From assembly GCA_902788035.1 (NCBI GenBank), contig CADAIL010000007.1, positions 128,908 to 192,907 on the forward strand: 64,000 bases of DNA, written 5' to 3'. The position numbers were made by a program, and so were the translations under genes. The stretch comes from an uncultured Lachnospiraceae bacterium. Lineage in GTDB: Bacteria > Bacillota > Clostridia > Lachnospirales > Lachnospiraceae. The notes under the pieces were generated by a model. It saw only the letters and a program-made list of their open reading frames with translations. It was not told where the DNA came from and searched no databases. The number at the start of each line of letters is the position of its first letter. Position 1 is the first letter of the stretch. Positions 10,300 to 56,722 of this stretch are shown one piece after another.

Positions 10300-10497
10300 A
10301 GCAGTTCAGACGGGCTGCCCCGGATCTCGAAAACCGGCGCAAACATCATCTTCATCGAAAAACGCAGGTCCTTCTCTGCGAGCTAAGCAATGCATATGCA
10401 TTGCTGATCTCTCGGTCGGACCTGCAATGTTTTTCTCACGAAGATGGATGCTTTGCTGCCGGGAACGAAATGCAGGGAACAACCCGTCCGAACTGCT
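10300..10497. repeat. Family A hairpin element, copy A
   Basis: Terminal arms GCAGTTCAGACGGG and CCCGTCCGAACTGC enclose about 200 bp that folds as one long hairpin. Inside, GCAGGTCC pairs with GGACCTGC, and the tip is a perfect 20-bp palindrome at 10386-10405. The conserved flanks ATCATCTTCATCGAAAAACG and TTTTTCTCACGAAGATGGATG-type sequence recur in all other full copies. It starts 13 bp after the stop of the methyltransferase gene and fills most of the 350-bp gap up to the pyrophosphorylase gene. Confidence 0.9.
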
Positions 10498-10509
10498 GCA
10501 CTGTGTTCG

Positions 10510-11913
10510 TTACTGTTCTTTCACCACTTGGAAGATGTAGAACTTAAGATACGAACTCTCCGCCGCCGACCACAAAATGGGATGGTCCGGCGCCTGCGTT
10601 CTCGCCTCGACCTGGCGCAGGCGCACATGGGCTTCCCTTGCCGCCTCGTGCACCATCTTCTCAAAAAGCTCACGCGTCATAAAGTGGGAGCAGGTGCAGG
10701 TCGCAAGGAAACCGCCGTCTTTTACCAACCGCATGCCTGCGCGGTTGATTTTCCGGTAGCCCTTCTCCGCATTCTTTATATTCTGCCTCGATTTTGCAAA
10801 TGCAGGCGGATCCAATATAACGACATCATACTGTATTCCTTCCTTCTCCATCTGCGGCAGTAGTTCAACGAGATCTGCGGTCATGAAACCGAGTTTTGTG
10901 CCGGATTCATTGGTCATGAAACGTCCTGTCAGCGCGTCCTCCGGAATTGCTCTTCCCATACCTGAATTTCCTGCCTGTACGTCCTGCGCCATCTTTCCGT
11001 CTATTGCGGATTTTCCGGCCTGTGCATCCTGCGCCATTCTTCCGTCAACATCGGGACATCCTACCTGCGCTTCCCCTGCTGTCGTCTCAGTCGTATAAGC
11101 AAATCCGTTCAGCTCCGCATTGCGGATCGCCTGGCGAAGGGCTGTCTCCGACGCATCGACCGCCAGAACACTTTCAGCTCCGGCCAACGCGGCGTTGAGC
11201 GCAAATGACCCTGTGTGAGTAAAGCAGTCCAGCACCTTAGCTCCGCGGCACATGGGACGGATGGCTGCGCGGTTATATTTCTGGTCAAGAAAAAATCCGG
11301 TCTTCTGGCCTTCCGCCACGTCGACAAGATAATGAACGCCGTTCTCTGTGATCGGGACCTGCGTGTCAAAGGGCTGACCTATGAAGCCTTTTTTCCTCTC
11401 CATTCCCTCCTTGAGCCGTTCCTTCGCGTCGCTACGCTCATAAATCCCGCGGATCTTTATGCCATCCTCAGCCAGGATCCCGATCAGAATTTCCAGAATC
11501 AGCTCTTTCATCCTGTCCATGCCCAAAGACAGAGACTCTATGACGAGTATATCCTCATACTTGTCAATCGTAATCCCCGGCAGAAAATCCGCATCGCCGA
11601 AGACGATGCGGCAGCTTCCTGTATCAACAGTCTTCCTGCGGTAGTCCCAGGCAGCCCTCAGTCTTTTCGTGAGAAACTCTCTGCCGATCTCAGTATCTTT
11701 ATCTCTGGTCAGCATGCGTACTCGGATTTTCGAGTTCATGTTGATAACACCCTTTCCCATGGGATAGCCGTCAAAGTCCCTGACACTCACGACGTCTCCA
11801 TTAAGAAAGCTTCCCTGTATATCGGCGATTTCATTGTCAAATATCCATGCTCCTCCGGATTTGAGAAGTCTTCCCTCTCCTTTTTTCAGTGTAATGAACG
11901 CAGACACTTTCAT
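10510..11913 (-). CDS. RlmI-type class I rRNA cytosine methyltransferase with a repetitive insertion
   Basis: 467 aa. It has an N-terminal PUA-like domain (about 1-75), then a linker and a Rossmann methyltransferase with VLDCFTHTGSFALNAALAGA as SAM site, VVILDPPAFAKSRQNI and ATCTCSHFM. These match the RlmI/YccW family of 23S rRNA (cytosine-C5) methyltransferases. Homologues are usually near 390-400 aa. Here about 60-70 extra residues (about 275-330) lie between NAELNGFAY and FMTADLVELLPQM and include three 15-residue repeats. The start follows a GAGGAG site. It is preceded by a divergent small-RNA candidate and followed closely by family A copy A. The exact target base is inferred. Confidence 0.88.
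   Translation of the reverse strand: MKVSAFITLKKGEGRLLKSGGAWIFDNEIADIQGSFLNGDVVSVRDFDGYPMGKGVINMNSKIRVRMLTRDKDTEIGREFLTKRLRAAWDYRRKTVDTGSCRIVFGDADFLPGITIDKYEDILVIESLSLGMDRMKELILEILIGILAEDGIKIRGIYERSDAKERLKEGMERKKGFIGQPFDTQVPITENGVHYLVDVAEGQKTGFFLDQKYNRAAIRPMCRGAKVLDCFTHTGSFALNAALAGAESVLAVDASETALRQAIRNAELNGFAYTTETTAGEAQVGCPDVDGRMAQDAQAGKSAIDGKMAQDVQAGNSGMGRAIPEDALTGRFMTNESGTKLGFMTADLVELLPQMEKEGIQYDVVILDPPAFAKSRQNIKNAEKGYRKINRAGMRLVKDGGFLATCTCSHFMTRELFEKMVHEAAREAHVRLRQVEARTQAPDHPILWSAAESSYLKFYIFQVVKEQ
10936..11070 (-). repeat. In-frame 45-bp x3 minisatellite in the RlmI-type gene
   Basis: Units marked by GTCCT/ATCCT at 10936, 10981 and 11026 encode QVGCPDVDGRMAQDA, QAGKSAIDGKMAQDV and QAGNSGMGRAIPEDA. 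The first two are most alike. The array accounts for most of the insertion in the methyltransferase domain. Confidence 0.8.
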
Positions 11914-11971
11914 ATCTCACTCCTCGAAAAAAAATTTACGATTTTTCAAATTTTTCTCTAATGTTCATAGT

Positions 11972-12000
11972 TTGTTCATTTTTATATGCTACTATACAAA
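11972..12000 (+). promoter_or_regulatory. Candidate promoter of the small RNA
   Basis: TTGTTC (11972-11977), a 17-base spacer and TACAAA(T) (11995-12000) lie 50 bp before the intrinsic terminator and diverge from the methyltransferase gene. Confidence 0.45.
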
Positions 12001-12001
12001 T

Positions 12002-12085
12002 GTGCTGAGAAGCACTCACTTTTTCAATGCCGGTTCGCCGGCATCCCCGGAAGGCCGCAACCCCTCATAGCGGCCTTCTTTTTTT
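12002..12085 (+). ncRNA. Candidate structured small RNA
   Basis: Three hairpins follow one another with no coding frame: GTGCT-GAGA-AGCAC (12002-12015), ATGCCGG-TTCG-CCGGCAT (12027-12044) with a stable UUCG loop, and a terminator at 12050-12085. A promoter-like sequence lies just upstream. Neither neighbouring gene is on this strand, so the terminator has no other evident owner. The first hairpin overlaps the predicted transcription start, so the 5' end is uncertain. No known RNA family was recognised. Confidence 0.5.
12050..12085 (+). terminator. Intrinsic terminator of the small RNA candidate
   Basis: GAAGGCCGC (12050-12058) pairs with GCGGCCTTC (12070-12078), followed by seven T. Only the plus strand has the T run. 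Confidence 0.85.
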
Positions 12086-12166
12086 ATCTTTCTCATTTCA
12101 ACGCGCAGTTTTCAGCGTGTTTTGCGCCAAAAAAAGCTATGTGACTCTTTCTTGAACAGCTCTGTA

Positions 12167-12943
12167 TTATTGACCTGCCATCTCGCGGAACGTAAGCGTC
12201 GAAATTTCCCCGGTCTGTACATTCTCAACCTCCACGCTGCCGTCACTTACGTCAATTCGAATATACGAAAAAATCTCAGCGGACTGTGCTTTTGACACGG
12301 TGTAAATAAGCACGCTTTCCTCTATGTCTGTATCTGAAATTTCGAACTCGGGACCAATATATGTTTCAACGATTTTTCGTATCTCCGGCTCACTGAGCCG
12401 CACAGTCATATCCGCCCGGTCACTTACAGCGTCCCCCGCAGCCTCTTCGTCAACTGTTCCGTCAGCCGCAGCTCCGTCAGTTCCGTTATTCGCAGCTTCA
12501 GTCTTCGCGCCGGCATTCCCGACGCCTGCCGCTGCATCAGCGATTCCTTCGTCCGCTGCCTCGCCGCCCGTCAGCTCCGGCTGATCTACCATGTCCTGAT
12601 TCCCGACCATTGTATCCTCTTCAGCCTCTTCAGCCGCATACTCCTTTGCCTCCTCATATTCCACACTACCGGTCATTGAAGGGCTCATGAGCGGCTGACT
12701 GATTCTTATGATTCCTGCTATCAGAATAAGCGCGCAGGCCACAGCCAGACCGGCGAGAATTTTTGACGCCGGGTATCTTTTTCTGCCTGAGAACGCTTTG
12801 GACAAATCCTCGTCAGCGTCCATTTTATATGCCGCCAGCCTTTCAGGATCAGCGCTGCTGATTTCCTTTAAGACGCGCCTCCGCATCTCATCGGTGACGA
12901 CGACTTTGTCCATGATCTCATTGTACTTTTTACTCAAAGTCAT
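12167..12943 (-). CDS. Membrane-anchored putative anti-sigma factor
   Basis: 258 aa with a short cytoplasmic N-terminus (MTLSKKYNEIMDKVVVTDEMRRRVL), one membrane segment at about 60-80 (ASKILAGLAVACALILIAGI) and a low-complexity acidic, Ala-rich outside region (about 95-170) followed by a small folded C-terminal domain. The ATG lies inside the end of the ECF sigma gene, a 14-bp overlap, implying translational coupling. Gene order and topology fit an anti-sigma factor. No zinc HxxxCxxC signature is seen, so this is inference from context. Confidence 0.7.
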   Translation of the reverse strand: MTLSKKYNEIMDKVVVTDEMRRRVLKEISSADPERLAAYKMDADEDLSKAFSGRKRYPASKILAGLAVACALILIAGIIRISQPLMSPSMTGSVEYEEAKEYAAEEAEEDTMVGNQDMVDQPELTGGEAADEGIADAAAGVGNAGAKTEAANNGTDGAAADGTVDEEAAGDAVSDRADMTVRLSEPEIRKIVETYIGPEFEISDTDIEESVLIYTVSKAQSAEIFSYIRIDVSDGSVEVENVQTGEISTLTFREMAGQ

Positions 12944-13511
12944 ACGCCTCCTTCAGAATTTCTTTCAGTTTCTTTCGCGCCCTTGAAAGATCCGACCTGA
13001 CCGTCACCTCTCTTCGGCCGAGAATGGCAGCAATCTCCGCCGTCGTAAATCCTTCATGGTAGAAAAGGTGAATGACCTCCCGGTAGTTATCAGGGAGCTG
13101 GCTGACAGCCTCCCATACGAACCCGAGATCCTCCTTCTCCTCTGCGACCAGCTCCTCCATGAGCTCATCATGATTTCGATACCCGTTATAGCGGATCCTG
13201 TTCTTGCTCAGGTTTCCGGCAACGCGGAAGAGCCAGGCTTTGGCGTGGGCTTCATTTGCAAATGCAGGCTTATTCACCAGATAAGTAAGCAGCGTATCCT
13301 GAAGAATTTCCTCCGCATCGGACATGTTGTGAAGATAGGAGTAGGCGAACCGCAGAATGCTGTCACCGTACCGGTCCATAATGAGAGCTGCTGTCTCATT
13401 TGCATCCTCCCCTGCTCCGGAATCGGTCTTCGGAACGGACGAGAAGGCAGCAAAGAGCAGCCGGTATATCCTCCCTATTCTGTTGTCATTCCACGGAATG
13501 GCCAGTGTCAT
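12930..13511 (-). CDS. ECF-type RNA polymerase sigma factor
   Basis: 193 aa. Region 2 is visible as YGDSILRFAYSYLHNMSDAEEILQDTLLTYL (about 48-78) and region 4 as LPDNYREVIHLFYHEGFTTAEIAAILGRREVTVRSDLSRARKKLKEIL (about 138-186). It would direct RNA polymerase to a small regulon controlled by the membrane protein encoded downstream. A GAGGAT site precedes the ATG. The N-terminal 35 residues (MTLAIPWNDNRIGRIYRLLF) extend beyond the usual ECF start. The inducing signal is unknown. Confidence 0.93.
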   Translation of the reverse strand: MTLAIPWNDNRIGRIYRLLFAAFSSVPKTDSGAGEDANETAALIMDRYGDSILRFAYSYLHNMSDAEEILQDTLLTYLVNKPAFANEAHAKAWLFRVAGNLSKNRIRYNGYRNHDELMEELVAEEKEDLGFVWEAVSQLPDNYREVIHLFYHEGFTTAEIAAILGRREVTVRSDLSRARKKLKEILKEAYDFE

Positions 13512-13574
13512 ATCTGATCCTCAACTTAATACAACTCATAACCCTTATATGTTGCATCCCTCATATCAAGAAAA

Positions 13575-13622
13575 GCGGTCCAGCAGTTATGTGTCTGTCA
13601 CACAATGCTGAACCGTCTTAAG
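13575..13622 (-). terminator. Terminator after the 152-aa unknown gene
   Basis: On the minus strand GACGGTTCAGCATTGTGTG (13617-13599) pairs imperfectly with CACATAACTGCTGGACCGC (13593-13575), then TTTTCTT. It follows the gene ending at 13643. Confidence 0.7.
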
Positions 13623-13642
13623 AATCGATTCAAAATCGAGAA

Positions 13643-14101
13643 TTAAATTCTCAGGAAATACGGACGAATGTCTGTGACCGAAGAGTGAATGAGCGCGATT
13701 CTGTTCGCGACGTCTCTCGCATAGCCGATACTGGAGGCATCATCCACGATATCAAAGTTAGCCCAGTCCTGATCATTGGTTTCAAAGTCGTCGATACATG
13801 TCAGAATGAGATCTGCCGCCCCGTCCTCACATACATAGAGTTCCTTCGTAGTCTCATCGATGATGTATGTCAGCTCTTTCTTGGATACGATAAGATAGTT
13901 CCGGTCTTCTGAAATGATCGGCAGAACTATCGTCCATGCCGGATTCTCGATCTCAGTGAACGCGCGGAACTGGGGAAGGAAAGTTCCCGTGATGTCCTGC
14001 GTATAAATCAGGGTGATGTCAAGCGGCTTTTCTGTTCCGACGTCGAATGTCAGATGGGCTTTCCCGCGTGCCGGTACAGAAAGATTGATTCTCTCGCTCA
14101 T
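13643..14101 (-). CDS. Protein of unknown function (152 aa)
   Basis: I do not recognise a family. The start MSERINLSVPARGK is set by AAGGAGGAG seven bases upstream, rather than a codon 33 bp earlier. The protein is acidic and soluble with no signal peptide or membrane segment. The middle (TWTIVLPIISEDRNYLIVSKKEL-like) looks beta-rich. It has its own terminator and lies between the sigma operon and another small unknown gene. Confidence 0.75.
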   Translation of the reverse strand: MSERINLSVPARGKAHLTFDVGTEKPLDITLIYTQDITGTFLPQFRAFTEIENPAWTIVLPIISEDRNYLIVSKKELTYIIDETTKELYVCEDGAADLILTCIDDFETNDQDWANFDIVDDASSIGYARDVANRIALIHSSVTDIRPYFLRI

Positions 14102-14324
14102 AGTGTGTCTCCTCCTTACAAAACATATAGTCATCTTGGTTTTGTATGCTGCTGCTCATTAGCTGTGCCGTGCGGTGCCCGAATAATGAAGCCTTCCGCA
14201 CCTTCGTACTTTTTATTATATATCATCAACCCGGCTTTTTAAACCCACAAGTTCCCGCTGAAATTATCAGAAATCCCTCGGCGTTTTTGCCGAGTTCCGC
14301 AGGCTGAAAAGTACTTCTCCTGTC

Positions 14325-14397
14325 GCGAGGCTGCGACTCTCAGAACTTCAGCTGCATGTTTACAGCTGCGAGGCTGCGATTCTCAGAACTTCAGCTG
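14325..14397. repeat. 30-bp direct duplication covering the 3' end of the unknown gene
   Basis: GCGAGGCTGCGAYTCTCAGA plus AACTTCAGCTG occurs at 14325-14354 and 14368-14397, 43 bp apart with one mismatch. The second copy contains the last codons and stop of the gene ending at 14383. The first is its downstream duplicate. Confidence 0.85.
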
Positions 14398-14865
14398 AAC
14401 TTCGTCGTTGACAATGTGCATGATTTCGGCTGTGAGATCCGCGATTCCGGTCTCGCTGTTCAGATCGGTCCTGCCGATCGTCCCTACCGGGTAAGCCTTG
14501 CCTGCCACTATATCACGCAGGTAATTGTACCATTTTCCGCCCAGGTCAAATACACGGCCGTCTTTATAGAGAATCAGCTCAGATCCGACCGAGTGCTCGT
14601 ACATATCATAATCCACGTAGGTGTCGTACCAGTAATAAATCCGGACATATTCATGTGAGGGATCCCATCCCTCGGCCGACGCGATGAGATACTTATCCAG
14701 CTGGCTCTCCTTTATTTCTTTTGCCGCCGCCCCGTCCGAGATCCATTTTTCGGGAAGAATGCCTGCTGCCGCATCCTCGAAGGCCTCGGCCAGTTTTACG
14801 AGTACAGCCTCATCCTCCGCGGGTACCGGGTATTCTTTTTCAAAATACAGTTCATAACAGTTCAT
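14383..14865 (-). CDS. Protein of unknown function (160 aa)
   Basis: Starts MNCYELYFEKEYPVPAEDE after a GGAGG site; an earlier in-frame ATG at 14895 lacks one. The protein is acidic, rich in Tyr and Trp (YVRIYYWYDTYVDYDMYE) and has no signal peptide. The family is not recognised. The 3' end has been duplicated locally. A partial family A element begins about 115 bp upstream of the start codon. Confidence 0.72.
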   Translation of the reverse strand: MNCYELYFEKEYPVPAEDEAVLVKLAEAFEDAAAGILPEKWISDGAAAKEIKESQLDKYLIASAEGWDPSHEYVRIYYWYDTYVDYDMYEHSVGSELILYKDGRVFDLGGKWYNYLRDIVAGKAYPVGTIGRTDLNSETGIADLTAEIMHIVNDEVQLKF

Positions 14866-14981
14866 TAATATTGACCTCCAATGCCGGCATGTCATACGCC
14901 GTCATGAGCATTATACAACCGGCTCACGAACTTTTCCACACCCACATAAGCTTCCTCGACAGTCGTCTGTCCGCAATTATA

Positions 14982-15036
14982 ACAGTTCAGACAGGCTGCT
15001 TCGGATCTGAGATACGTCGCAAACATCATCCGCAGT
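14982..15036. repeat. Family A hairpin element, half copy B
   Basis: ACAGTTCAGACAGGCTGC, then CGGATCTGAGA, then CGCAAACATCATC correspond to the left arm of other family A copies. The sequence breaks off within two bases of the stop of the ABC ATPase gene, and no right arm is present. It is a truncated or decayed copy. Confidence 0.75.
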
Positions 15037-15037
15037 G

Positions 15038-15796
15038 TTAGATAATCCTGTACCCCGGAAACTCATTTTCCCCGATACCGTACAGTTTTCTCAAGTACAC
15101 ATCATTAAGGACCTCCGTCCCCCCATCCGCGTCCATATGGCCGTCCTTCAGACAGATCACACGGTCCGATACCAGCCGTACAAGCTCCAGCTCATGCAGA
15201 GACATCAGAATCGTCACATGCTGCTTCTCCGCCAGCAGGCGAAGAAGATTCAGGAATTCCAGCTTATATCGGATATCAAGGAATGTTGTCGGCTCATCGA
15301 GGATCAGAATATCCGGTTCCTGGCAGATTGCCTTGGCCAGAAGGACCCGCTGCCTCTGACCGTCGCTGATTTCCGTTATATATAGAGAGGACAGATCACT
15401 TGTCCCGGTCAGTTCCATTGCCCCGTCAACAGCCTCGTCATCTGCTGCCCTAAGTTTTCCCAGAAGCCCTGTATAGGGATAACGGCCGGATGCCACCATT
15501 TCCCGGCAGGTCATCCACTCCGGCCTTATGTTCCCGGTCATCATGACCGCCATGGCTTTCGCTATCTCGCTTCTCGTCAGCTCCCCAAGGTCTCTGTCTC
15601 CCAGAAGCACGTTTCCTTTAAGAGGCGCAAGGTCACCCATCAGAGTCTTCAGCAGGGTCGACTTGCCGGACCCGTTCGGTCCGATCAGAGAGATGATCCG
15701 GCCCTCAGCGAGGTCGAAATTTATATCCGACAGCACGATCCTGCTGCCATAGCCCGCGCTGAGATCGCGCGCGGACAGGGTAATTTTATCATTCAT
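15038..15796 (-). CDS. FecE/BtuD-type ABC transporter ATP-binding protein
   Basis: 252 aa ATPase energising uptake of a metal complex or corrinoid across the membrane. Walker A is GPNGSGKST (about 38-46), the signature ISDGQRQRV (about 138-146) is a slight variant of LSGGQ, and Walker B is ILILDEPTTFLD. It is last in a five-gene unit after the permease, binding protein, NEAT-like lipoprotein and CbiK-like genes, all downstream of a cobalamin riboswitch, so corrinoid or cobalt-tetrapyrrole import is the best guess. Heme or ferric siderophore remains possible from the family alone. Confidence 0.92.
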   Translation of the reverse strand: MNDKITLSARDLSAGYGSRIVLSDINFDLAEGRIISLIGPNGSGKSTLLKTLMGDLAPLKGNVLLGDRDLGELTRSEIAKAMAVMMTGNIRPEWMTCREMVASGRYPYTGLLGKLRAADDEAVDGAMELTGTSDLSSLYITEISDGQRQRVLLAKAICQEPDILILDEPTTFLDIRYKLEFLNLLRLLAEKQHVTILMSLHELELVRLVSDRVICLKDGHMDADGGTEVLNDVYLRKLYGIGENEFPGYRII

Positions 15797-15862
15797 GAGT
15801 TATCTACCTTTTCTCTTCAGGTTACATTCCTGACCAATCCGGGCTTGCAGAATCTATATTCA

Positions 15863-19293: not shown

Positions 19294-19590
19294 TGTGACA
19301 GTTCAGACAGGCTGCAGCAAAGTTTCAGGATCCGGCGCAAAGATCATCTTCATCGAAAAGCGCATATCCTTCCCTACGAGCTTGCGTAGGCGACAAGCCA
19401 AGGTGCCTGATTCGTGCTCGCACGAAAGGAAGGCACTTTGGCGCCCGCCCGACATCGAGCGTGAAACGCGAGATGAAGGCGGCTTGCCGCCTATGCGATC
19501 TCTCAGTCGGATATGCAATGCTTTTCTCACGAAGATGGATGCTTTGCTGCCGGAAACGTTGCATAAGAACAGCCTGTCTGAACTGTCACA
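19294..19590. repeat. Family A hairpin element, copy C (extended form)
   Basis: Perfect 21-bp terminal inverted repeats at 19294-19314 and 19570-19590 bound a 297-bp element. GCATATCC pairs with GGATATGC in the stem. In place of a short tip it has about 130 bp with nested hairpins (GATTCGTGCTCGCACGAA and AAGGTGCC/GGCACTTT) that is almost identical to copy D. It lies inside the operon, 53 bp after the CbiK-like gene and about 94 bp before the lipoprotein gene. Confidence 0.92.
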
Positions 19591-20767: not shown

Positions 20768-20852
20768 CGCACTTATCCCTGCAGCTGCCCCGCAGGGATG
20801 ATGGTACGACCAATGCCTCGTGATCCGGAGCGGATGCTCCTGTACCGGCATA

Positions 20853-21014
20853 CGGCAGGTTTCCTGGCTTCGGATCATCATACGCCGCGCTGCCTTCCCG
20901 GCTTTCGCCAGTGACATTCTGCGCGCCGCACTCCCCTTTCACAGTGACGAGATCGTACAGGATTTGCACCTGTTTCCCTTTTACCCTCCGCGCTGACTCC
21001 GCGCGCAGGCACCG
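20853..21014 (-). promoter_or_regulatory. Cobalamin riboswitch aptamer
   Basis: The B12 box GCCAGGAAACCTGCC is at 20868-20854 and the conserved CAGGTGCAAATCCTG-type segment at 20971-20958. GGTGCC, GGGAAACAGGTGC and GGCGAAAGCCGGGAAGG-like segments lie in between and around, in the order of the AdoCbl/cobalamin class. It precedes the CbiK/ABC operon and is followed by an intrinsic terminator, so rising cobalamin should switch the operon off. Confidence 0.93.
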
Positions 21015-21056
21015 TATACCTATTTAGTTTTAGCGGGACTCCCCCGCGATACGAAA

Positions 21057-21095: not shown

Positions 21096-21391
21096 GTAAC
21101 AGTTCATGCGGGCTGCATCCGAATCTCTGAAGCCGGCAGTAAGCATCATCTTCATCGAAAAGCGCAGGTCCTACCCTCCGAGCCTGCGTAGGCGACAAGC
21201 CAAGGTGTCTGATTCGTGCTCGCACGAAAGAAAGGCACTTTGGCGCCCGCCCGACATCGAGCGTGAAACGCGAGATGAAGGCGGCTTGCCGACTACCTGG
21301 TATCTCAGTCGGACCTGCAATGCTTTTCTCACGAAGAAGGATGCCTCACTGCCGGCAACGAACTATGAAAGCAGCCCATCCGAACTGTTAC
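21096..21391. repeat. Family A hairpin element, copy D (extended form)
   Basis: Terminal arms 21096-21116 and 21371-21391 (GTAACAGTTC.../...GAACTGTTAC) bound 296 bp. The stem carries GCAGGTCC/GGACCTGC and the interior is nearly identical to that of copy C. It lies directly upstream of the B12 operon promoter and about 150 bp before the sulfatase gene, so the two extended copies flank the riboswitch-cbiK segment. Confidence 0.9.
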
Positions 21392-33955: not shown

Positions 33956-33997
33956 TATGGTAAACCCGGTAAAGTCAAGGTTCACTCTTACGCAAAG

Positions 33998-34095
33998 GAG
34001 CTGTCGCATCAGGCGGTGTCACCACTGTATATGGCAGACATTTGCAAATAACGTCTGACATATATAATGATGGCGCGCCTTAATGCGACAGCCCC
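33998..34095 (-). repeat. Family B palindrome after the PspC gene
   Basis: GGAGCTGTCGCAT (33998-34010) pairs with ATGCGACAGCCCC (34083-34095). Inside, TATATGGCAGAC pairs with GTCTGACATATA around ATTTGCAAAT. Read on the minus strand, the whole 98-bp element aligns closely with the element at 46304-46400, including AAGGCGCGCC, the loop and CAGTGG. It may terminate the PspC transcript. Confidence 0.85.
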
Positions 34096-34133
34096 GTTTC
34101 TAATGGCTTATTCTACAGTCCCTTCTCCAATTA

Positions 34134-44876: not shown

Positions 44877-45092
44877 GTGTGCACCTCCTTATTTTTACGA
44901 AACATTGACCCGGCTGACACAGATCCCGCGTTTTATCCCGCCGGAAAAACTTAAGACCGAGACTGCGCCAGTTCCTCTGATCGTGCCGTCTGTTTTCATC
45001 TCTCGTTCATAAGTGTATCAAATTATGCGACAATTTACAAATACAAGCTTGCACATATTAGGCCTTCGGGATAAACTTTTATAATCCGGACG

Positions 45093-45263
45093 GGCTGCTC
45101 ACGCAATCCGCTTCCGGCGCACGCATCATCTTCATCGAAAAACGTCGCTCCTTCCATCGAACTAGTAAAAGGCTTCGCCTTTTCCGATTTCTCCGGTCGG
45201 ACCGACAATGTTTTTCTCACGAAGATGAATGCTTTTCGCCTGCAGTGGATTGCGTGAATAGCC
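45093..45263. repeat. Family A hairpin element, copy E
   Basis: GGCTGCTCACGCAATCC (45093-45109) pairs with GGATTGCGTGAATAGCC (45247-45263). The core ATCATCTTCATCGAAAAACG and TTTTTCTCACGAAGATGAATG is conserved. The inner stem is GTCGCTCC/GGACCGAC with one mismatch, and the tip is an AAAAGGC/GCCTTTT hairpin. It lies between the divergent clostripain and dus genes. The rest of that 505-bp gap shows no further structure. Confidence 0.88.
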
Positions 45264-45382
45264 TGACCTAGCCAATCAAGAACGTCGGGCTGTTCTTACC
45301 GCGCCGTTCAAAATGCGAAACATCTTTTTAAGCAATCCCACTGATAACAAGATGGACAGATAACAGACAGAAAGGGCACCAG

Positions 45383-46318
45383 ATGGAATACTATTTCGCT
45401 CCCCTCGAGGGCATCACAGGCTGGATCTACCGCAGCGCCCACGCTAAGTATTTCCCCGGTTTAGACAGATACTACACTCCGTTCATTGCGGCCAATCAGA
45501 CCCATAAAATGAAGACCCGGGAGAAAAAAGATGTGGCCCCTGCCAACAACGCTCTATATAACTGTATTCCGCAGGTCCTCACAAAAGTACCCGAAGATTT
45601 TGTTTACTCGGTCCGGGTCCTCAGTGAAATGGGGTACACCGAAGTCAATCTCAATCTCGGCTGCCCTGTCCCGACGGTGACGACTAAAGGAAAAGGCTCC
45701 GCCATGCTCGGAAATACAGACGCTCTTGACAGATTTTTTGACAGAACATTCGAGCTTATGGAATCAGAGCATCTAAGTACCGGCATATCCGTAAAAAGCC
45801 GCATAGGAGTTTCAAGTACAGACGAAGCCATACCCATTTATGAGGTATTCAACCGCTATCCCATCCGGGAGGTCATCGTCCATCCAAGGACCACGAAAGA
45901 GATGTATCAGGGAGAAACCCATAGAGACGTATATGAGGAAATAAGGCGCATGTCAAAGCATCCCCTCTGCTATAACGGCAACATAGTAAAGCCATCAGAT
46001 ATGGATGCTTTCCCGCATGAACGGGCAGTCATGATCGGCCGCGGACTGCTCAGAAATCCGGCTCTCGTGCGTGAAATCCAGGGCGGACCCGCTCTCACTC
46101 CTGATGAGCTGTTCGCATTCTTCCGAGAGGTCCAAAAAGGCTATGAGGAGGAAATGTACGGGGAGGCGCCTGTTCTGGCAAAGATGAAGGAGCTCTGGTG
46201 GTACGCGGGTGATCTTTTCCCGGGAGCCGACAGAGCATTAAAAAAGATAAAGAAAGCCAAATCAATCTCGGAATACGAGATGGCAGTAAACAGGTTAAAA
46301 GAAGGGCTGCCGCTCTAA
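45383..46318 (+). CDS. dus: tRNA-dihydrouridine synthase family protein
   Basis: 311 aa flavoenzyme reducing uridines in tRNA. MEYYFAPLEGITGWIYRSAHAKYFPG is the FMN-barrel start. NLNLGCPVPTVTTKGKGSAML holds the catalytic Cys in GCP. VKSRIG, VIVHPRTTKEMYQG, YNGNI and MIGRGLLRNPALV complete the Dus pattern. The subtype is not DusB-like in all details, so the target position is unknown. The stop codon lies inside a family B palindrome. AGAAAGG precedes the ATG. Confidence 0.93.
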   Translation: MEYYFAPLEGITGWIYRSAHAKYFPGLDRYYTPFIAANQTHKMKTREKKDVAPANNALYNCIPQVLTKVPEDFVYSVRVLSEMGYTEVNLNLGCPVPTVTTKGKGSAMLGNTDALDRFFDRTFELMESEHLSTGISVKSRIGVSSTDEAIPIYEVFNRYPIREVIVHPRTTKEMYQGETHRDVYEEIRRMSKHPLCYNGNIVKPSDMDAFPHERAVMIGRGLLRNPALVREIQGGPALTPDELFAFFREVQKGYEEEMYGEAPVLAKMKELWWYAGDLFPGADRALKKIKKAKSISEYEMAVNRLKEGLPL

Positions 46319-46410
46319 GGCGCGCCGCCACTGTACTTGGCAGACGATATTTGCAAATGTCTGCCAAGTACAGTGGCGGCACCGCTTAGTGCAGCAGCCC
46401 CTCTGTTTTT
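46304..46410. terminator. Family B palindrome/terminator overlapping the dus stop codon
   Basis: GGGCTGC (46304-46310) and GCAGCCC (46394-46400) frame a perfect 22-bp stem (46324-46345 with 46359-46380) around GATATTTGCAAAT, followed by CTCTGTTTTT. It overlaps the last codons of dus and ends at the stop of the convergent ClC gene. It is closely similar to 33998-34095 read on the opposite strand. Confidence 0.9.
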
Positions 46411-48984: not shown

Positions 48985-49135
48985 GTCATATCCTTTCCGG
49001 ACACCGCGCCTTATCATAGCGGTCCGATGTCTCATCTTATATGCAGCAGATTCCTCATGTCATTGTACCATTTTTCCGGCGGCAAATCACCCATCATCGT
49101 GAGAAAAGCACTGTGAATTCGCCAAGGAAGCATAG

Positions 49136-49329
49136 CAGTTCAGACAGGCTGTTATCATAGTCCGTTAACGGTGCGAACATCCATCTTCGTGAGAAAAGCA
49201 TTGTAAGTCCGACCGAGAGATCAGGAAACGCGCAGGCGTTTCCTAAGCTCGCAGAGAAGGACTTACGCTTTTCGATGAAGATGATGTTTGCGCCGGATTC
49301 CAAACCTAAGGGGCAGCCTGTCTGAACTG
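49136..49329. repeat. Family A hairpin element, copy F (inverted)
   Basis: Perfect 16-bp terminal repeats CAGTTCAGACAGGCTG (49136-49151) and its complement (49314-49329). Compared with the other copies the core is in reverse orientation. The stem has GTAAGTCC/GGACTTAC and the tip AGGAAACGCC/GGCGTTTCCT-like pairing. A further core fragment ATCATCGTGAGAAAAGCA lies at 49093-49110. It occupies the gap between the divergent pfkA and TPR-DUF4037 genes. Confidence 0.9.
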
Positions 49330-49366
49330 TTATTGAGAAACATCTCCCTATCTGTGGATTGTCTGT

Positions 49367-51181: not shown

Positions 51182-51216
51182 TAAAGATTCCCCATACCGG
51201 AAGAATGATGCACAGA

Positions 51217-51250
51217 GACCCTTCGGTGTAATTTCCGAAGGGTCCTTTTT
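51217..51250 (+). terminator. Terminator after the TPR-DUF4037 gene
   Basis: GACCCTTCGG (51217-51226) pairs with CCGAAGGGTC (51235-51244), then CTTTTT. Confidence 0.88.
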
Positions 51251-51280
51251 AGGTTATTTTATCGCCTTGCCGCAATTATT

Positions 51281-51311
51281 AAAAAAGGCCGTCACAACAG
51301 TGACAGCCTTT
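51281..51311 (-). terminator. Terminator of the ferric ABC operon
   Basis: On the minus strand AAGGCTGTCAC-TGTT-GTGACGGCCTT is followed by a T run. It lies about 95 bp past the stop of the ATPase gene and carries a GGCTGTC arm like family B. Confidence 0.8.
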
Positions 51312-51405
51312 CTTCGTATTGCTTCAAAATTTCCCCGGCCAATTAGACTTTCGCAGTCGCATTTCAATTTATAGGCATGTCCGGGAAGAGATGAAAATGC
51401 AGAAA

Positions 51406-52482
51406 TTACAGAACATGAACATTTGCCGGATCGAACTTCACATATGCCTTGTCGCCGACATTGTAAATCTTCTTGTTCTTCGGATTAAAATCTGTGATCT
51501 TGACAAGATTGTCGCCGACCATAACATGATAGTTCTGATAGCTTCCCATGAAGCAGCTCAGAATGACTCTGCATGGCAGCTGACCGGAATCAGCGAGAAC
51601 AGCGGACTCAGGTCTCAGGACCAGTGTGCAGGTATCGCCGACGCCGAAATTCGAAATTTCTTTGACATCGACCTTCGTGCCGGAGATATCGACCACGCCG
51701 TCGCTTCCGTTCTTTGATTTCAGAGGTCCTTTGAGGAAGTTGGCCTCGCCGATGAAGTCTGCGACAAATTCACTCTTCGGATGATAGTAGATCTCCTGCG
51801 GTGACCCCATCTGCGCGACGATGCCCTTCTCCATGATGATAATCTTATCTGAGATCGCCATGGCTTCACTCTGATCGTGGGTAACATATATGGCAGTAAT
51901 TCCGGCTTCCTGCTGGATACGGCGGATCTCGGTTCTCATGGAGACGCGGAGCTTGGCATCCAGGTTGGACAGCGGCTCGTCGAAAAGCAGCACGCCCGGC
52001 TCAAGAACCAGCGCGCGGGCAAGCGCGACACGCTGCTGCTGACCGCCGGACAGCTGATTGGTCATGCGGGCTTCCATTCCTTCAAGGCCGACGAGCTTCA
52101 GGATATTCGTGACTTTGGTCTTTATGGTCGCCTTATCCATCTTGCGGAGCTTGAGGCCGTAAGCGACGTTATCGAAAATGTTATAGTGCGGAAGCAGCGC
52201 GTAGCTCTGGAAAACCATGGCCGTGTCGCGCTTATTCGGGGTGAGGGCGTTGATCGGCTCTCCGCCCAGATAAATCTCACCCTCATCCGGGCTCTCAAAG
52301 CCGGCGATCATGCGGAGCGTGGTTGTCTTGCCGCAGCCGGACGGTCCGAGCAGTGTGACGAAGCTGCCAGGCTCAATATCCAGTGATGTATCTTTGACCG
52401 CATAAAAATTCTTTTTTGTTTTCGGATCCTGATATATCTTCGAAATATGTTCAAGGCGCACGCCTTTTTTCTCTTTTGCCAT
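51406..52482 (-). CDS. FbpC/PotA-type ABC transporter ATP-binding protein
   Basis: 358 aa. Walker A LLGPSGCGKTTTLRM (about 43-57), Q-loop VFQSYALLPHYNIFDNVAYGL, signature LSGGQQQRVALARAL and Walker B VLLFDEPLSNLDAKLR. The C-terminal 120 residues form a TOBE-like domain (TCTLVLRPESAVLADSG). It powers the permease encoded three bases upstream and the binding protein, in a ferric-iron or 2-aminoethylphosphonate type system. GGAGG near the ATG lies within the end of the permease gene. Confidence 0.92.
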   Translation of the reverse strand: MAKEKKGVRLEHISKIYQDPKTKKNFYAVKDTSLDIEPGSFVTLLGPSGCGKTTTLRMIAGFESPDEGEIYLGGEPINALTPNKRDTAMVFQSYALLPHYNIFDNVAYGLKLRKMDKATIKTKVTNILKLVGLEGMEARMTNQLSGGQQQRVALARALVLEPGVLLFDEPLSNLDAKLRVSMRTEIRRIQQEAGITAIYVTHDQSEAMAISDKIIIMEKGIVAQMGSPQEIYYHPKSEFVADFIGEANFLKGPLKSKNGSDGVVDISGTKVDVKEISNFGVGDTCTLVLRPESAVLADSGQLPCRVILSCFMGSYQNYHVMVGDNLVKITDFNPKNKKIYNVGDKAYVKFDPANVHVL

Positions 52483-52485
52483 TGC

Positions 52486-54195
52486 TTATTCCTCCCTGTA
52501 ATTGCGGCTCGTTCCGAAGTATTTAATGACGAGATTCATCAGAAGGACCGCGCTGTACGTGATGATGATAAGAATCGATGCAAATGCGCATGCGATACCG
52601 TAGGCACCCTTCTCCGCGAACTCATTGATCTGGACTGTGATGAGCAGATACTGCGGCGTAACGAGAAGGATGATCGCGCTGATAGCGGTGATACTTCGCA
52701 CAAATGCTGTGACAAGACCGCTGAGGAAGCTGTCCTTGATGAGAGGCAGCGTGACTGTCATAAAGACTGTCAGGCTGTCCGCGCCCATATCGTACGCGGA
52801 CTCCTCAATGCTCTTGTCAATCTGGCGCAGAGCCGAGATACCGCTTCTTGTACCTGTAGGAAGACTTCGTACAATGAAGACGATGACCAGGATCGCTCCT
52901 GTTCCGTAAAGCCCCTGAAGGAATCCGGTTCTGAATACACCGGCGGAGAAACCGCGGATATATCCGATACCGAGAACAGTACCCGGAACAGCCATGGCCA
53001 GCATGGAGACCGCCTCGATGAAGCCTTTGGCCTTGAACTTCCTCTTGACGACCAGATACGAGATGATCATGGACAGGAGGGCTGTAATCGGGGAGGCGAT
53101 GAGCGACAGGACGAAGGAGTCCTTGAAGGCTTTGAAGCCTTTATACTTGGTGAATACCTGCCGGAACCATTTTGTAGTCAGGTGGAAGTCATAGCCCCAC
53201 GTCTTGAACATGGCGCCGAACGGTACGCAGATATACATCATAACTACGAAGAGGGCAAGCAGCGAGCAGAGAATCGTCAGAGGAATCGTGACGCTGCGGT
53301 CCTCGATCAGCATTCTCTGGCGGGACGCCTTGCCGGACAGAGTTGCTGTGCTCTTGGCTTCGAGGTAATACTTCTGCACGATGAACATAAGGAGCGTGAT
53401 GCCGAGGAGGACGACAGCCATTGCGGACGCGCCTTCCTTATCGTAGGCACCGGTGATCTGCAGGTAGATCGTCGTCGCCAGTGTATCGTAGGAACCGCCG
53501 ATGATCATCGGGTTCGCGAAGTCGGCGATCGACTCGATGAAAGTGACCAGGAACGCATTGCCAAGTCCCGGGAGGATCAGCGGAAGCGTGACTGTCATAA
53601 AAACCTTCCAGCGGGTCGCTCCCATATCGCGGGCAGCTTCCTCAAGGGAAGGATCGATATTCTTGAGAAGGCCTCGCATCATCATGTAGCAGACCGGGAA
53701 GAAAGTCAGTGTCTGGACAATGGCGATGCCCCAGAAGCCGTAAACGTTATTGTCATAGATATGCAGCAGGAAGCGGGTAATGATACCGGCTTTGCCGAAC
53801 AGCATGATCATGGACAGTGACAGCACGAACGGCGGGGAGACGACCGGCAGCATGGAGACGACCTTAAAGAGTCCTTCCATAAAGCGTGTCTTAAGTTTTA
53901 CATACACTTCAACGTAGGCGAACAGAAGTCCGATGAGCGCGGACGCGATGCCTACAAGGAAGCCTACTTTCAGCGTGTTGGTGATAGCCCTTCGGAAATT
54001 GGACATTTTCAGTATCCGTTGGAAAACAGAAAAACCGATTCCCTCGTCGGTCACAAAACTGTCGACCAGAAGAATCGCCAGCGGATAGAGAATGAATAAT
54101 GTCAGGAAGGCGATCAGGGCAACAATCGTAGTGACCATGATCGGATCGGCAAAGAATTTCTTGCGGTCCAGGCTGGCACTCTGATTTTTAGCCAT
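52486..54195 (-). CDS. FbpB-type fused ABC transporter permease
   Basis: 569 aa with twelve hydrophobic segments in two similar halves, each with a binding-protein-dependent permease loop: EEAARDMGATRWKVFMTVTLPLILPGLGNAFL and EESAYDMGADSLTVFMTVTLPLIKDSFLSGLV. Fused permeases of this type serve ferric iron (FbpB/SfuB) or related ions. It is between the binding protein and the ATPase genes in one operon. GGAGG precedes the ATG. Confidence 0.93.
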   Translation of the reverse strand: MAKNQSASLDRKKFFADPIMVTTIVALIAFLTLFILYPLAILLVDSFVTDEGIGFSVFQRILKMSNFRRAITNTLKVGFLVGIASALIGLLFAYVEVYVKLKTRFMEGLFKVVSMLPVVSPPFVLSLSMIMLFGKAGIITRFLLHIYDNNVYGFWGIAIVQTLTFFPVCYMMMRGLLKNIDPSLEEAARDMGATRWKVFMTVTLPLILPGLGNAFLVTFIESIADFANPMIIGGSYDTLATTIYLQITGAYDKEGASAMAVVLLGITLLMFIVQKYYLEAKSTATLSGKASRQRMLIEDRSVTIPLTILCSLLALFVVMMYICVPFGAMFKTWGYDFHLTTKWFRQVFTKYKGFKAFKDSFVLSLIASPITALLSMIISYLVVKRKFKAKGFIEAVSMLAMAVPGTVLGIGYIRGFSAGVFRTGFLQGLYGTGAILVIVFIVRSLPTGTRSGISALRQIDKSIEESAYDMGADSLTVFMTVTLPLIKDSFLSGLVTAFVRSITAISAIILLVTPQYLLITVQINEFAEKGAYGIACAFASILIIITYSAVLLMNLVIKYFGTSRNYREE

Positions 54196-54316
54196 TTCTT
54201 TTCCTCCTTGTCAAATGAAAGAAATACTGCAAGTGCTTTCATCTTAAAAGGTGCCGCTGACCAGTCAGACAGCGGCACCCCTCATATCATTCATGTACAG
54301 AGCAGAAGCCGTGCGG

Positions 54317-55447
54317 TTATTCAGTCTGGAAACGATCGTCAGCAGCGCTGCCGAGAGCGTTCATGACGTCCTCTACATACTGTGTAGTATTCTCTTTTGC
54401 GTCCTCAAAGTCATACTCCATGACGTTGTCCGGATCAAGCCCGAACTCCGCGGCGACTGCCGGCTGCTCGGCATTGTCGATGACCAGGAACTGATAGGAG
54501 CCGTTCTGTGCGGCAAGTTCAACGCAGTCCGGGCTGAGAGCGTACTCGATCCAGAGCTTGGCTGCGTTCGGATGCTTGCAGCCCTTGAAGATTGCCGTAG
54601 CACCGATCTCGAAGGATGTGCCGGAGCTCGGGATGATCAGGGAGATATTGCCGTAGCCGTTGTCCTCGATCTGAGTGATGCCGTCATGCAGGAAGCCGAT
54701 GCCGATGACGCACTCGCCTGTACCTACGTTCTTGGACGGGCCGGAGCCGGACTTTGTATAGACCTGGATGTTCTTGTCAAGATCTACGAGATACTGGATA
54801 CCTTCGTCATGTCCGTATTTCTGGATCATTGTATTGACGACCAGTTTGGCCGTACCTGCTGTATTATAGTTGGACAGCCAGATGAGATCCTTATACTTCG
54901 GATCAAGAAGATCTGCCCAGTCCTTCGGAGCTTCAATGCCCATTCGGTCGAGCTCGTCCTGGTTGACCATGAATCCGAGGATACCCTTGTAGATGCCGTA
55001 CCACTGACCGTCAGCATCACGGTATGTGTCGCTGATCAGATGGCTTGCGTTCTCTGCCTCATAGGGCTCAAGAAGACCTTCACTTGCAGCAACATTATAC
55101 GGGTCTGTCGTGCCGCCGAACCATACATCGCCGGACGGATTTCCCGCTTCTTCCTCGATCTTGGACTGAACTTCACCTGTGGAAAGTCTCTGATACTGAA
55201 CTTTGATGCCGTAGAGCTTTTCGAAGTTCTCGCATGCAGCCGCAAGATAATCTTCCTCGCATGAGCCGTAAACGACAAGTGTTCCCTCTTCTTTAGCGGC
55301 AGTAACAAGATCACTGTCAGCCGACGCCGAGCTCTCAGTTCCTTCCTGAGGAGCCGCGGGGGCCGCAGCGTCCTGTCCGGATCCGCCGCAGGCAGCAAGA
55401 CTCATTGCCATGAAGCCGGTGAGTAATAATGCCAATGCTTTTTTCAT
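54317..55447 (-). CDS. FbpA-type extracellular solute-binding lipoprotein
   Basis: 376 aa. MKKALALLLTGFMAMSLAAC is a lipoprotein signal peptide. The mature fold is type II: LVVYGSCEEDYLAAACENFEKLYGIKVQYQRLSTGEVQSKIEEEAGNPSGDVWFGG, LGFMVNQDELDR, WIEYALSPDCVELAAQNGSYQFLV. It resembles ferric-iron binding proteins. The usual paired Tyr ligands cannot be assigned with confidence, so phosphonate or thiamine-type ligands remain possible. It leads the operon behind a promoter overlapped by an inverted repeat. Confidence 0.9.
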   Translation of the reverse strand: MKKALALLLTGFMAMSLAACGGSGQDAAAPAAPQEGTESSASADSDLVTAAKEEGTLVVYGSCEEDYLAAACENFEKLYGIKVQYQRLSTGEVQSKIEEEAGNPSGDVWFGGTTDPYNVAASEGLLEPYEAENASHLISDTYRDADGQWYGIYKGILGFMVNQDELDRMGIEAPKDWADLLDPKYKDLIWLSNYNTAGTAKLVVNTMIQKYGHDEGIQYLVDLDKNIQVYTKSGSGPSKNVGTGECVIGIGFLHDGITQIEDNGYGNISLIIPSSGTSFEIGATAIFKGCKHPNAAKLWIEYALSPDCVELAAQNGSYQFLVIDNAEQPAVAAEFGLDPDNVMEYDFEDAKENTTQYVEDVMNALGSAADDRFQTE

Positions 55448-55465
55448 ACTTTCCTCCTATTCCCT

Positions 55466-55530
55466 TTGTGCAATTTTTACAACAGTTTACTGCTATTTGC
55501 ACAATACATTATGAAATAATCATAACGCAA
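55466..55530 (-). promoter_or_regulatory. Promoter and candidate operator of the ferric ABC operon
   Basis: On the minus strand TTGCGT (55525-55530), an 18-base spacer and TATTGT (55501-55506) form a promoter. Two perfect arms TTGTGCAA and TTGCACAA (55466-55473 and 55497-55504) lie 31 bp apart centre to centre, about three helix turns, one of them overlapping the -10. This suits a repressor binding paired sites. The regulator is unknown. Confidence 0.55.
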
Positions 55531-55576
55531 TCGGACATAAATGTAAAGAATTAGTTAGTGGCAAATCTAAGGGCTG

Positions 55577-55601
55577 AAAAAGAGGCTGTCGCGACAGCCC
55601 C
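55577..55601 (-). terminator. Minimal family B terminator after the feo gene cluster
   Basis: GGGGCTGTCGCGACAGCCTC on the minus strand is palindromic around CGCG and is followed by TTTTT. It ends the transcript of the feo cluster and shows the family B arms without an insert. Confidence 0.85.
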
Positions 55602-55610
55602 TTGATCAGT

Positions 55611-55850
55611 TTAGAGGAGCAGAAGGACACCGTTCACGATAAGCCCCTGTTTATTCCACTTCTTAAGTATCATGTTCGAGACACAGAAAATGGCGGCAAG
55701 TTCCGCATACGCAGCAACCAGACCGCCTGATTCTCCGCTTCCGCCCACTGCAAGCAGGGCAAGTAATGCGGAGCATATATATTTTATTGCCATTGTGGCT
55801 CTTAGAAGCCGCGTCTTATCCGTTATAAACTCTGCGAGAGATTTCTTCAT
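55611..55850 (-). CDS. Small membrane protein, possibly a truncated fragment
   Basis: 79 aa: KYICSALLALLAVGG and AELAAIFCVSNMILKKW plus GLIVNGVLLLL suggest two or three membrane segments, with a stop directly after the last hydrophobic run. No family is certain. The final segment resembles the beginning of a longer membrane domain (similar in type to the sulfatase at 21.5 kb), so truncation is possible. It follows the NifX-like gene by 36 bp and precedes the terminator. Confidence 0.5.
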   Translation of the reverse strand: MKKSLAEFITDKTRLLRATMAIKYICSALLALLAVGGSGESGGLVAAYAELAAIFCVSNMILKKWNKQGLIVNGVLLLL

Positions 55851-55886
55851 GACTGCCCATCCTCTTTATCAAAGATCAGGCCTTGT

Positions 55887-56225
55887 TCAAAGCTCCCTGA
55901 GTTTTCCCGCCGCGTATGACGTCACAGCTGCCTTCGCGCCGCCGTCAAATGTATACAGCTTTATTCCGGCTTTCCTAAGCAGGCTCATGGCTTTCGGCCC
56001 GAAGTTTCCGGAGATGACTGCATCCACTCTGCAGAGTTTAAGTTCCCGCAGCATGTCCTCCACTTTGCCCGAGTACACAGAAAGTATCTGCATACGGACA
56101 ACTTTCGTCTCATCGACAGCATAGATCCAGAACGCCTCGCTGCGCTCAAATACCGGGATCTCGCTCCCGGTATAAGACACTGCCACAATATCCGTGGCAT
56201 ATACAATCTTTGAATGTCCCGGCAT
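55887..56225 (-). CDS. NifB/NifX-type dinitrogenase iron-molybdenum cofactor domain protein
   Basis: 112 aa, MPGHSKIVYATDIVAVSYTGSEIPVFERSEAFWIYAVDETKV followed by LRELKLCRVDAVISGNFGPKAMSLLRKAGIKLYTFDGGAKAAV, matching the DiNase_FeMo-co domain. Stand-alone members bind metal clusters or metal ions and are common in anaerobes without nitrogenase. Here it sits in the feo cluster, so iron handling is inferred. GGAGG six bases before the ATG sets the start. Confidence 0.88.
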   Translation of the reverse strand: MPGHSKIVYATDIVAVSYTGSEIPVFERSEAFWIYAVDETKVVRMQILSVYSGKVEDMLRELKLCRVDAVISGNFGPKAMSLLRKAGIKLYTFDGGAKAAVTSYAAGKLREL

Positions 56226-56241
56226 ATCAACCTCCATTCTT

Positions 56242-56490
56242 TCAGAACAGGCCGAAAAATGATTTTTTTGCCGGCTCGATCCTGACACTCAGGCAGCGAT
56301 ACCCCATGGTCTCAAGCACTTTATCCAGCTGTTCCTTAGTGAGCGGTTCTTCGCTTACAATGTATGCCTCGTTCTTTCGGTGGGAAGACGTCACTTTTCG
56401 GACTTTGAAGTTTTTCCTGATCATGTCGTTTACATGTGATTCACACATTGAACACATCATACCATCTATTTTTGCCGTTGTCATTATCAT
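56242..56490 (-). CDS. HMA-like small metal-binding protein
   Basis: 82 aa. MTTAKIDGMMCSMCESHVNDMIRKNF carries an MCSMC pair near residue 13, like the MxCxxC of heavy-metal-associated domains but with spacing CxxC preserved. The rest (VTSSHRKNEAYIVSEEPLTKEQLDKVLETMGYRCLSVRIEP) fits the ferredoxin-like fold. It may carry copper or iron. GAGGGG lies 10 bp before the first ATG. Confidence 0.85.
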   Translation of the reverse strand: MIMTTAKIDGMMCSMCESHVNDMIRKNFKVRKVTSSHRKNEAYIVSEEPLTKEQLDKVLETMGYRCLSVRIEPAKKSFFGLF

Positions 56491-56528
56491 GTTATTATTA
56501 CCGCCCCTCTAGTTCTATTCTCCTATCG

Positions 56529-56722
56529 CAGGTCGGGCAGGCTGCCGCGAAGCTCCATAGCCGGCGCAGGTATCATCTTCATCGAAAAACGCATATCCTT
56601 CCCTCGAGCTTAAAAATGCAATAGCATTTTTGATCTCTCAGTCGGATATGCAATGTTTTTCTCACGAAGATGGATATCCTGCGACGAGGACGAAGTGCAA
56701 GAGCAGCCTGACGGAACTGTCA
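56529..56722. repeat. Family A hairpin element, copy G
   Basis: GGCAGGCTGC and GCAGCCTGACGG arms bound the copy. The stem carries GCATATCC/GGATATGC and the tip AAAAATGCAATAGCATTTTT. The right arm runs into CTGTCACA, where TCA (56720-56722) is the stop codon of the Cys-rich protein gene, so the element overlaps that gene's end. It splits the feo cluster between the Cys-rich and HMA-like genes. Confidence 0.88.

Follow-up and report, generated by a model that had tools for sequence, protein, structure and literature searches.

A dispersed hairpin family in an uncultured Lachnospiraceae bacterium: miniature transposable elements with IS66-like ends and a conserved core that may be used as folded DNA

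What keeps a dispersed hairpin complementary while its sequence changes? The question is raised by a stretch of 64,000 nucleotides on contig 7 of the genome of an uncultured Lachnospiraceae bacterium (contig CADAIL010000007.1), referred to here as the window. A preliminary description, made from the letters alone, had reported six full copies and one half copy of a long hairpin with differing but complementary stems. All seven were recovered at the coordinates given there. The conserved flank motifs returned 6 and 7 matches (≤3 mismatches) against shuffled means of 0.03 and 0.00, and the inner-stem sequences were correct, including the single mismatch in copy E at 45078 (GTCGCTCC/GGACCGAC). 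No copy contains a transposase, the elements being too short to encode one. The copies are miniature inverted-repeat transposable elements (MITEs). We consider it moderately probable that they form an IS66-type MITE family whose hairpin core has been retained because the folded DNA itself is used.

A full copy is an imperfect hairpin of ~200 bp. From the outside in, it comprises 20-nt outer arms, an internal-loop region, the core, an inner 8-bp stem and a tip. The core arms contain CATCTTCATCGAAAA and TTTCTCACGAAGATG, and both the inner stem and the tip are variable in sequence. Copies C and D reach ~295 bp, with ~94 nt replacing the tip. The outer 20-nt arms, 8-bp target duplications and genome-wide copies were found in addition to what the preliminary description had listed. 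In the bacterium's own genome (G000; assembly of 2.96 Mb, 53 contigs, 97.6% complete), the left-arm pattern CATCATCTTCATCGAAAARCG with ≤3 mismatches occurred at 182 places, 97 forward and 85 reverse, and the reversed pattern used as a control gave 0 matches. Exact core matches numbered 162, 129 and 81 in three related genomes. Carriage by viruses was not indicated, as seven pattern matches lay in viral contigs and none of them had a right arm. Orthologous places were compared with the related genomes G018 and G003; L-numbers below denote the genome stretches that were read.

Marks of transposition were detected at the outer ends, using the 90 of 98 copies with usable anchors (eight were left out). 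The terminal inverted repeats measure 20 bp (GTAACAGTTCAGACAGGCTG), outer-arm pairing being 0.43 at position 20 and dropping to 0.22 at the next. The outer arms paired above re-dealt arms, at 0.687 versus 0.607 (sd 0.009). Identity between the flanking octamers was 0.364 versus 0.252 in shuffled sets (sd 0.017; maximum of 1000 shuffles 0.310). Only a duplication length of 8 stood out, the other lengths from 3 to 12 reaching ≤0.287. With the boundary free by 1, the octamers matched at six or more of eight positions in 18 of the 90 copies; 200 shuffles had a mean of 2.8 and a maximum of 8. Most target duplications were eroded. G003 lacks copy C, which is flanked by TTGTCATT and ATGTCAAC; the orthologous place there contains a single octamer ATGTCAAC and represents an empty site. 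Copy L040:2052 was likewise absent in G018. Core-less miniature versions of 63–78 bp were present in L098, L099, L103 and L115, and by eye the duplication was an exact octamer in L115 and agreed at 7/8 positions in L098. Terminal inverted repeats, an 8-bp target duplication and a short (~200–300 bp), multi-copy (182 left arms) and transposase-free body are the properties of MITEs. The earlier suggestion of a hairpin-type mobile element moved in trans is thereby supported by the terminal repeats, the duplications, the empty site and the IS66-like ends described below.

The same properties bear on a different mover. A REPIN-like element moved by an own-genome IS200-type Y1 transposase was considered. 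REPIN hairpins likewise show compensatory changes (PMC3116915), and the own genome has PF01797 matches, of which one is complete and four, at or near contig ends, are partial. The present elements carry 8-bp target duplications and 20-bp terminal inverted repeats. IS200-type movement, as in REPIN/RAYT systems, is not known to leave a target duplication. This origin is scarcely credible.

Mobilisation in trans by an IS66-family (ISBst12-type) transposase appears likely from the ends and the duplication length of an element in the genus-mate G027. This element of 1,967 bp encodes a 483-residue protein with DDE_Tnp_IS66 and DUF6444, assigned by NCBIfam to the IS66 family. Its ends are GTAACTGTTCAGAACCCC, and three of four intact copies showed exact 8-bp duplications. 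The ends of the hairpin elements begin with GTAACAGTTCAGAC and agree with the G027 element at 12 of 13 terminal bases. For ISDge4 of the ISBst12 group, the ends GTGACTACTCAGCA and GTAACTGCTCAGCA and an 8-bp repeat are given in PMC12898284. The GTAAC...TCAG ends and the 8-bp duplication of this group were both found in the hairpin elements, and the G027 element, judged by its ends, would be a group member. The DDE_Tnp_IS66 coding region of such elements was not found in the copies, which are too short, and PF03050 had 0 matches in G000. In the genus, PF03050 matched in 10 of 42 genomes, G000 and G018 not being among them, and the match in G003 was to an IS256-type protein. This weak G003 match was rejected as IS66 on account of the gene being a Transposase_mut, and no matching terminal repeats were found near it. 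The G027 protein as query found relatives in 4 of 42 genus genomes, none of them in G000, G003 or G018.

Table 1. Hairpin copies and a remnant in the window; extents of copies include the 20-nt ends.
Feature	Position	Strand	Remarks
Copy A, full	10298..10499	+	20-nt ends 10298–10317 and 10480–10499
Copy A core arms	10347–10361 and 10432–10446	+	
Half copy B	14982..15035	+	left end and core start only
Copy C, full	19295..19589	+	~94 nt in place of tip
Copy D, full	21096..21391	+	tip insert resembling that of copy C
Copy E, full	45078..45278	+	ends decayed
Partial right arm beside copy F	49088..49108	−	3 mismatches; remnant
Copy F, full	49132..49333	−	
Copy G, full	56525..56723	+	

Several window copies (Table 1) were traced in the related genomes. 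The orthologous place of copy A is occupied in both G018 and G003, and half copy B has an identical truncation in G018. Copy D carries the tip insert in G000 and a short tip in its G018 orthologue. At least six further places in G018 match copy C over almost the full length. The ~94-nt insert is thus spread together with the element, and tips change while the element stays where it is. One reading frame is open across nearly all of copy A (10302–10496, +). A protein search with this frame returned 21 short proteins (64–112 aa), 20 unnamed and one hypothetical, which were taken as translated repeats. A cobalamin riboswitch (20837–21031, −) adjoins copy D.

Covariation of the stems was assessed in alignment A1, comprising 89 of 106 own-genome copies; the 17 left out mostly had longer tips. 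Stem cells were paired in 92.2% of cases versus 86.9 in shuffled alignments, a value reached by 0 of 500 shuffles. The covariation score of 0.169 lay above all 500 shuffles (0.085, sd 0.003) and above the slid registers (≤0.072), and the covariation claimed in the preliminary description is real. No excess was seen in further pair types (35 versus 34.9 shuffled). The inner stem occurred in 32 haplotypes, with 53 of 89 copies perfectly paired and 34 of 89 showing one mismatch. Distinct haplotypes formed a mean of 7.34 of 8 pairs versus 5.66 (sd 0.16) when arms were re-dealt. The slid registers and the haplotype test weigh more than the shuffle test, since kinship among copies can inflate the latter. 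Between species, the variable stem showed three double Watson–Crick changes in 2 of 27 same-orientation pairs, which are small numbers. Three changes from paired to unpaired and five from unpaired to paired were counted in the same stem, one pair lacking usable arms. At the ends, two Watson–Crick-to-Watson–Crick doubles were present, with no clear excess of double changes.

A search of relatives with a covariance model extended the family within the genus. The exact 15-mer was present in only 3 of 37 genus genomes, and model R1 recovered the core from nine of 42. Across the genus, asymmetric bulges and unpaired bases were conserved. In six genomes (G005, G011, G021, G023, G033 and G035) the core was mostly longer. 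The tip of this long form is a conserved 36-nt apical module, about GTTCCCG..AGTCGC..CGCATACTT.TGGTCAC, and the sequence of the outer arms is different. Alignment A2 held 24 long copies with 53 pairs, 1 of 25 copies being left out. Two-sided change was found in 19 of the 53 pairs, and 98.3% of cells were paired (0 of 500 shuffles). After removal of two fixed-wobble columns, 1192 of 1219 cells were Watson–Crick, 6 were G-T and 11 were A-C. The exchange of one pair for another without wobble intermediates is uncommon in RNA and is consistent with a structure at the DNA level or with copying from arm to arm. In G000, a single long copy was detected (G000:C4:13971-14132, L248); it lies between secY and adk and has other ends (GGTTACTGCTCACAGCCAAT...). 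R2 matched one genome, G000, among 295 sampled from 130 genera of the order, under strict filters and with few candidates per genome being scored. The short form was present in one named record, Lachnospiraceae bacterium RGIG2359 from goat ileum. Rfam contained no relevant covariance-model match at gathering score for either form; three microRNA models overlapped long copies with E values of 0.034 to 0.82, far below gathering scores. A long copy of G033 (L219 1013–1360, −) lies ~140 nt upstream of a tmRNA gene.

The compensatory change described earlier is thus confirmed by the covariation score, the haplotype test and A2. It is not proof of selection by itself, because template switching in palindromes can produce such pairs; according to PMC8794818, template switching both makes and repairs hairpin stems. 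Rates of change were compared in 33 orthologous pairs of G000 with G018 or G003, of which six were scored inverted, not all with certainty. The right core arm, limited to ≤3 mismatches in the selection, had 9 changes in 494 sites (1.8%). The inner stem had 21 in 462, the ends 138 in 1227 and the loop beside the ends 232 in 1066, and the flanks of the 27 same-orientation pairs diverged by 5–27%. In a small set of orthologues fetched by synteny, to which left-arm selection does not apply (L117, L118 and L121), the left 15-mer was exact in 5 of 5 and the right in 4 of 5. The core is likely to be under constraint beyond pairing and probably does a job of its own, because it changed far less than the surrounding DNA and can still be recognised by the genus-wide model in nine genomes. 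An ordinary MITE without function, with copies alike because they are young and paired changes made by template switching only, would account for the stem repair and for outer arms that pair above re-dealt arms without a clear between-species excess of double changes. Such an origin is improbable, given mostly eroded duplications, the divergence of the flanks against 1.8% in the right core arm, and bulges and unpaired bases that are conserved across the genus.

Orientation was compared at the 23 places in G018 with both flanks anchored. The element had the same orientation at 18 and was inverted at two; three were first scored absent. When these were rechecked, L040:2052 was empty and the other two held element sequence. 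Copy C is inverted in place in G018, with both flanks, the stem and the tip insert the same. In L073, the inverted copy has both flanks and the same stem with a different tip, for which reason replacement by another copy is possible. L070 was inverted with one flank, the same stem and nearly the same tip. The other three of the six pairs scored inverted, L053, L042 and L093, were not interpretable. Since copies were found inverted in place, the orientation of the element seems to matter little.

The gene context was read for 110 copies, with ≤1 mismatch allowed to the left core arm and ≤2 to the right one, using genes called with a simple purpose-made caller. Two copies at stretch edges received no class. 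None of the 108 classified copies was inside a called open reading frame (ORF); 84 lay between tandem, 14 between divergent and 10 between convergent gene pairs. In tandem contexts, the upstream stop was nearer than the downstream start in 68 of 84, with 51 copies ≤40 bp from the stop and 5 ≤40 bp from the start. The two orientations were balanced in these contexts, with 39 copies in the same direction and 45 in the opposite one. For the 49 copies with a gene reading into the left end, the stop codon was a median of 16 bp ahead of the element; for the 56 with a gene reading into the right end, the median distance was ~80 bp. A scan for hairpins followed by T residues gave 5/49 sense and 9/53 antisense hits in the interval from the stop to the element, and 7 and 11 beyond it. 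Control genes gave 31/115 within 200 nt, and the terminator scan was not informative. Before counting, 10 of 103 rows were left out in one copy set, and 4 of 29 rows plus one duplicate in another.

Taken as a mechanism, an IS66-family (ISBst12-type) transposase would move the ~200-bp MITEs in trans, leaving 8-bp duplications. The constraint would concern folded DNA, as a hairpin or cruciform, more than RNA, because pairs of the long family swap Watson–Crick partners almost without wobble and copies sit inverted. Template switching between the arms would probably be the source of many paired changes and perhaps of the inversions as well, and selection would keep the bulges and the core sequence. 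The fold would then likely be used as a protein-recognised DNA structure near gene ends. A more specific version can be put forward only tentatively: an as yet undescribed DNA-level module, formed by a hairpin of ~160 nt, single-stranded or cruciform, in which the 36-nt apical domain and the bulges are fixed. It would be borne by IS66-type MITEs, kept by selection at its individual places on the chromosome, able to flip there, and thereby a dispersed chromosomal signal near gene ends that does not depend on orientation. It would apply to one genus, with up to ~180 copies per genome.

A number of observations weigh against an IS66-type family retained as folded DNA, the first of them concerning the transposase. 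No IS66-type gene was found in G000, G018 or G003, of which the latter two are 82% and 64% complete. Movement in trans, or loss of the partner, was inferred from this lack of an IS66-type gene in the carrier genome. G027 itself had no core match. With the IS256-type match of G003 excluded, IS66 genes were present in nine genomes, the core in nine and both in three, which is about chance and gives no clear association in the genus. An autonomous copy with the same ends was not found in 20 stretches around unpaired or oddly spaced ends, among 100 of 161 end matches. The 20 stretches held full copies, truncated copies, tandem ends and 63–78-bp minis. The scan for transposases covered ten of the longer ORFs beside single ends, taken from five of these stretches and from two others. 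One was a transposase of the IS1634 family (L108:518-2119, −; NF033559 match with E 1e-92), the others being non-transposases or without a family. An element copy lies on one side of its gene and a second element right end on the other, and TGACAGTTCAGA, as in the element ends, is present near the left border of the gene region, the right border being hidden by runs of N. Elements of the same kind could hence be moved by this own-genome IS1634-family transposase. Known IS1634 ends are C-----YT, with duplications of 5–6 bp or long and variable ones, according to PMC2266710; the present ends start with GTAAC and the duplication is 8 bp. Identical 112-bp direct repeats flank the gene beside runs of N (L108 176–2557), and they fit an IS1634 insertion with a long duplication or a scaffolding artefact. 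Movement by the IS1634-family transposase is very unlikely.

The remaining adverse points concern rates, mismatches and gene context. The left core arm had 4 changes in 495 sites, a figure unusable for rates because exact left-arm matches had served to retrieve the G018 stretches and most of those from G000. In the short family, the H3–H6 mismatches were skewed, with 40 A-C versus 3 G-T cells and, over distinct haplotypes, 17 versus 3. The skew speaks for RNA and is left without explanation under a DNA-level function; RNA from the minus strand is a live rival, because A-C cells of H3–H6 become G-U on the opposite strand. The clustering of copies at gene 3′ ends is also expected if transcription matters. 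In this alternative, the core would be a structured RNA: transcribed copies would fold into a long hairpin within 3′ untranslated regions and thereby control the decay or processing of the mRNA, for which ERIC and Correia elements are precedents (PMC10969869). Balanced orientation, the in-place inversion of copy C, the almost complete lack of G-U pairs in the long family and the lack of a relevant Rfam match argue against it, and the 3′ bias alone would be expected if insertion near promoters were selected against. Of the structured RNA or mRNA-stability signal raised in the preliminary description, we would say that it is possible and rather unlikely, near-absent G-U in the long family and inversion favouring the DNA level.

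Other repeats were observed around the copies and elsewhere in the window. Minisatellite-like tandem arrays of outer arm plus flank occurred in L048, L010, L020, L007, L005, L025, L094 and L116, at one or both copy ends, as if replication slips at the hairpin base. In L014, L017, L043, L077 and L036, copies lay in or beside an inverted repeat GGGACGGTTCTTTT...AAGAACCGTCCC, a second palindromic family. The window also contains a tandem array of at least seven ~73-bp units with AAGCAGGATTTTGCTGCTTCTG (3687–4311) and a second dispersed pair of 111 nt (33993–34103 and 46295–46405, 77% complementary). The copy near 46297–46407 also folds on itself, and the pair is possibly another hairpin family.

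As a rule, bacterial MITEs are regarded as two ends with filler between them. In this family it is the filler that is conserved best, among orthologues and across the genus, while the ends decay. The family provides a testable case for a mobile element by which a folded nucleic-acid signal is spread, and a natural data set for separating template-switch repair of palindromes from structural selection, which is a general open question about compensatory change. Neither MITEs nor hairpin repeats are new, nor are compensatory changes within them (PMC3116915, PMC2267715 and PMC10969869). In the searches made of open-access literature, no IS66-type MITE was seen to be reported with a structural core that is conserved, and the conserved module would be the new part of the family.

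Among known systems, integron attC sites are folded single-strand DNA with variable tips and conserved bulges. Unlike these, the present elements disperse by insertion with 8-bp duplications. The ISBst12 group, represented by ISDge4, shares the GTAACTG(C/T)TCAG-type ends and the 8-bp duplication (PMC12898284), whereas the copies lack a transposase and the searches of the carrier genome returned no IS66-type gene. ERIC, Correia/NEMIS, bcr1 and further MITE-like repeats of bacteria are imperfect hairpins of 100–200 bp, mostly intergenic and in up to hundreds of copies, and QMITE2 is mainly located at gene 3′ ends (PMC10969869 and PMC2267715). The present family resembles the former repeats in size, long hairpin, intergenic position and copy number, with ERIC compared by architecture from papers. 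It differs from them in having IS66-type ends and 8-bp duplications, in a core far better conserved than the ends, in an apical module kept across several species and in having been seen, in the searches made here, in one genus only. REPINs (RAYT) are likewise trans-mobilised hairpins with compensatory changes (PMC3116915), whereas the present elements are larger and possess target duplications and terminal inverted repeats.

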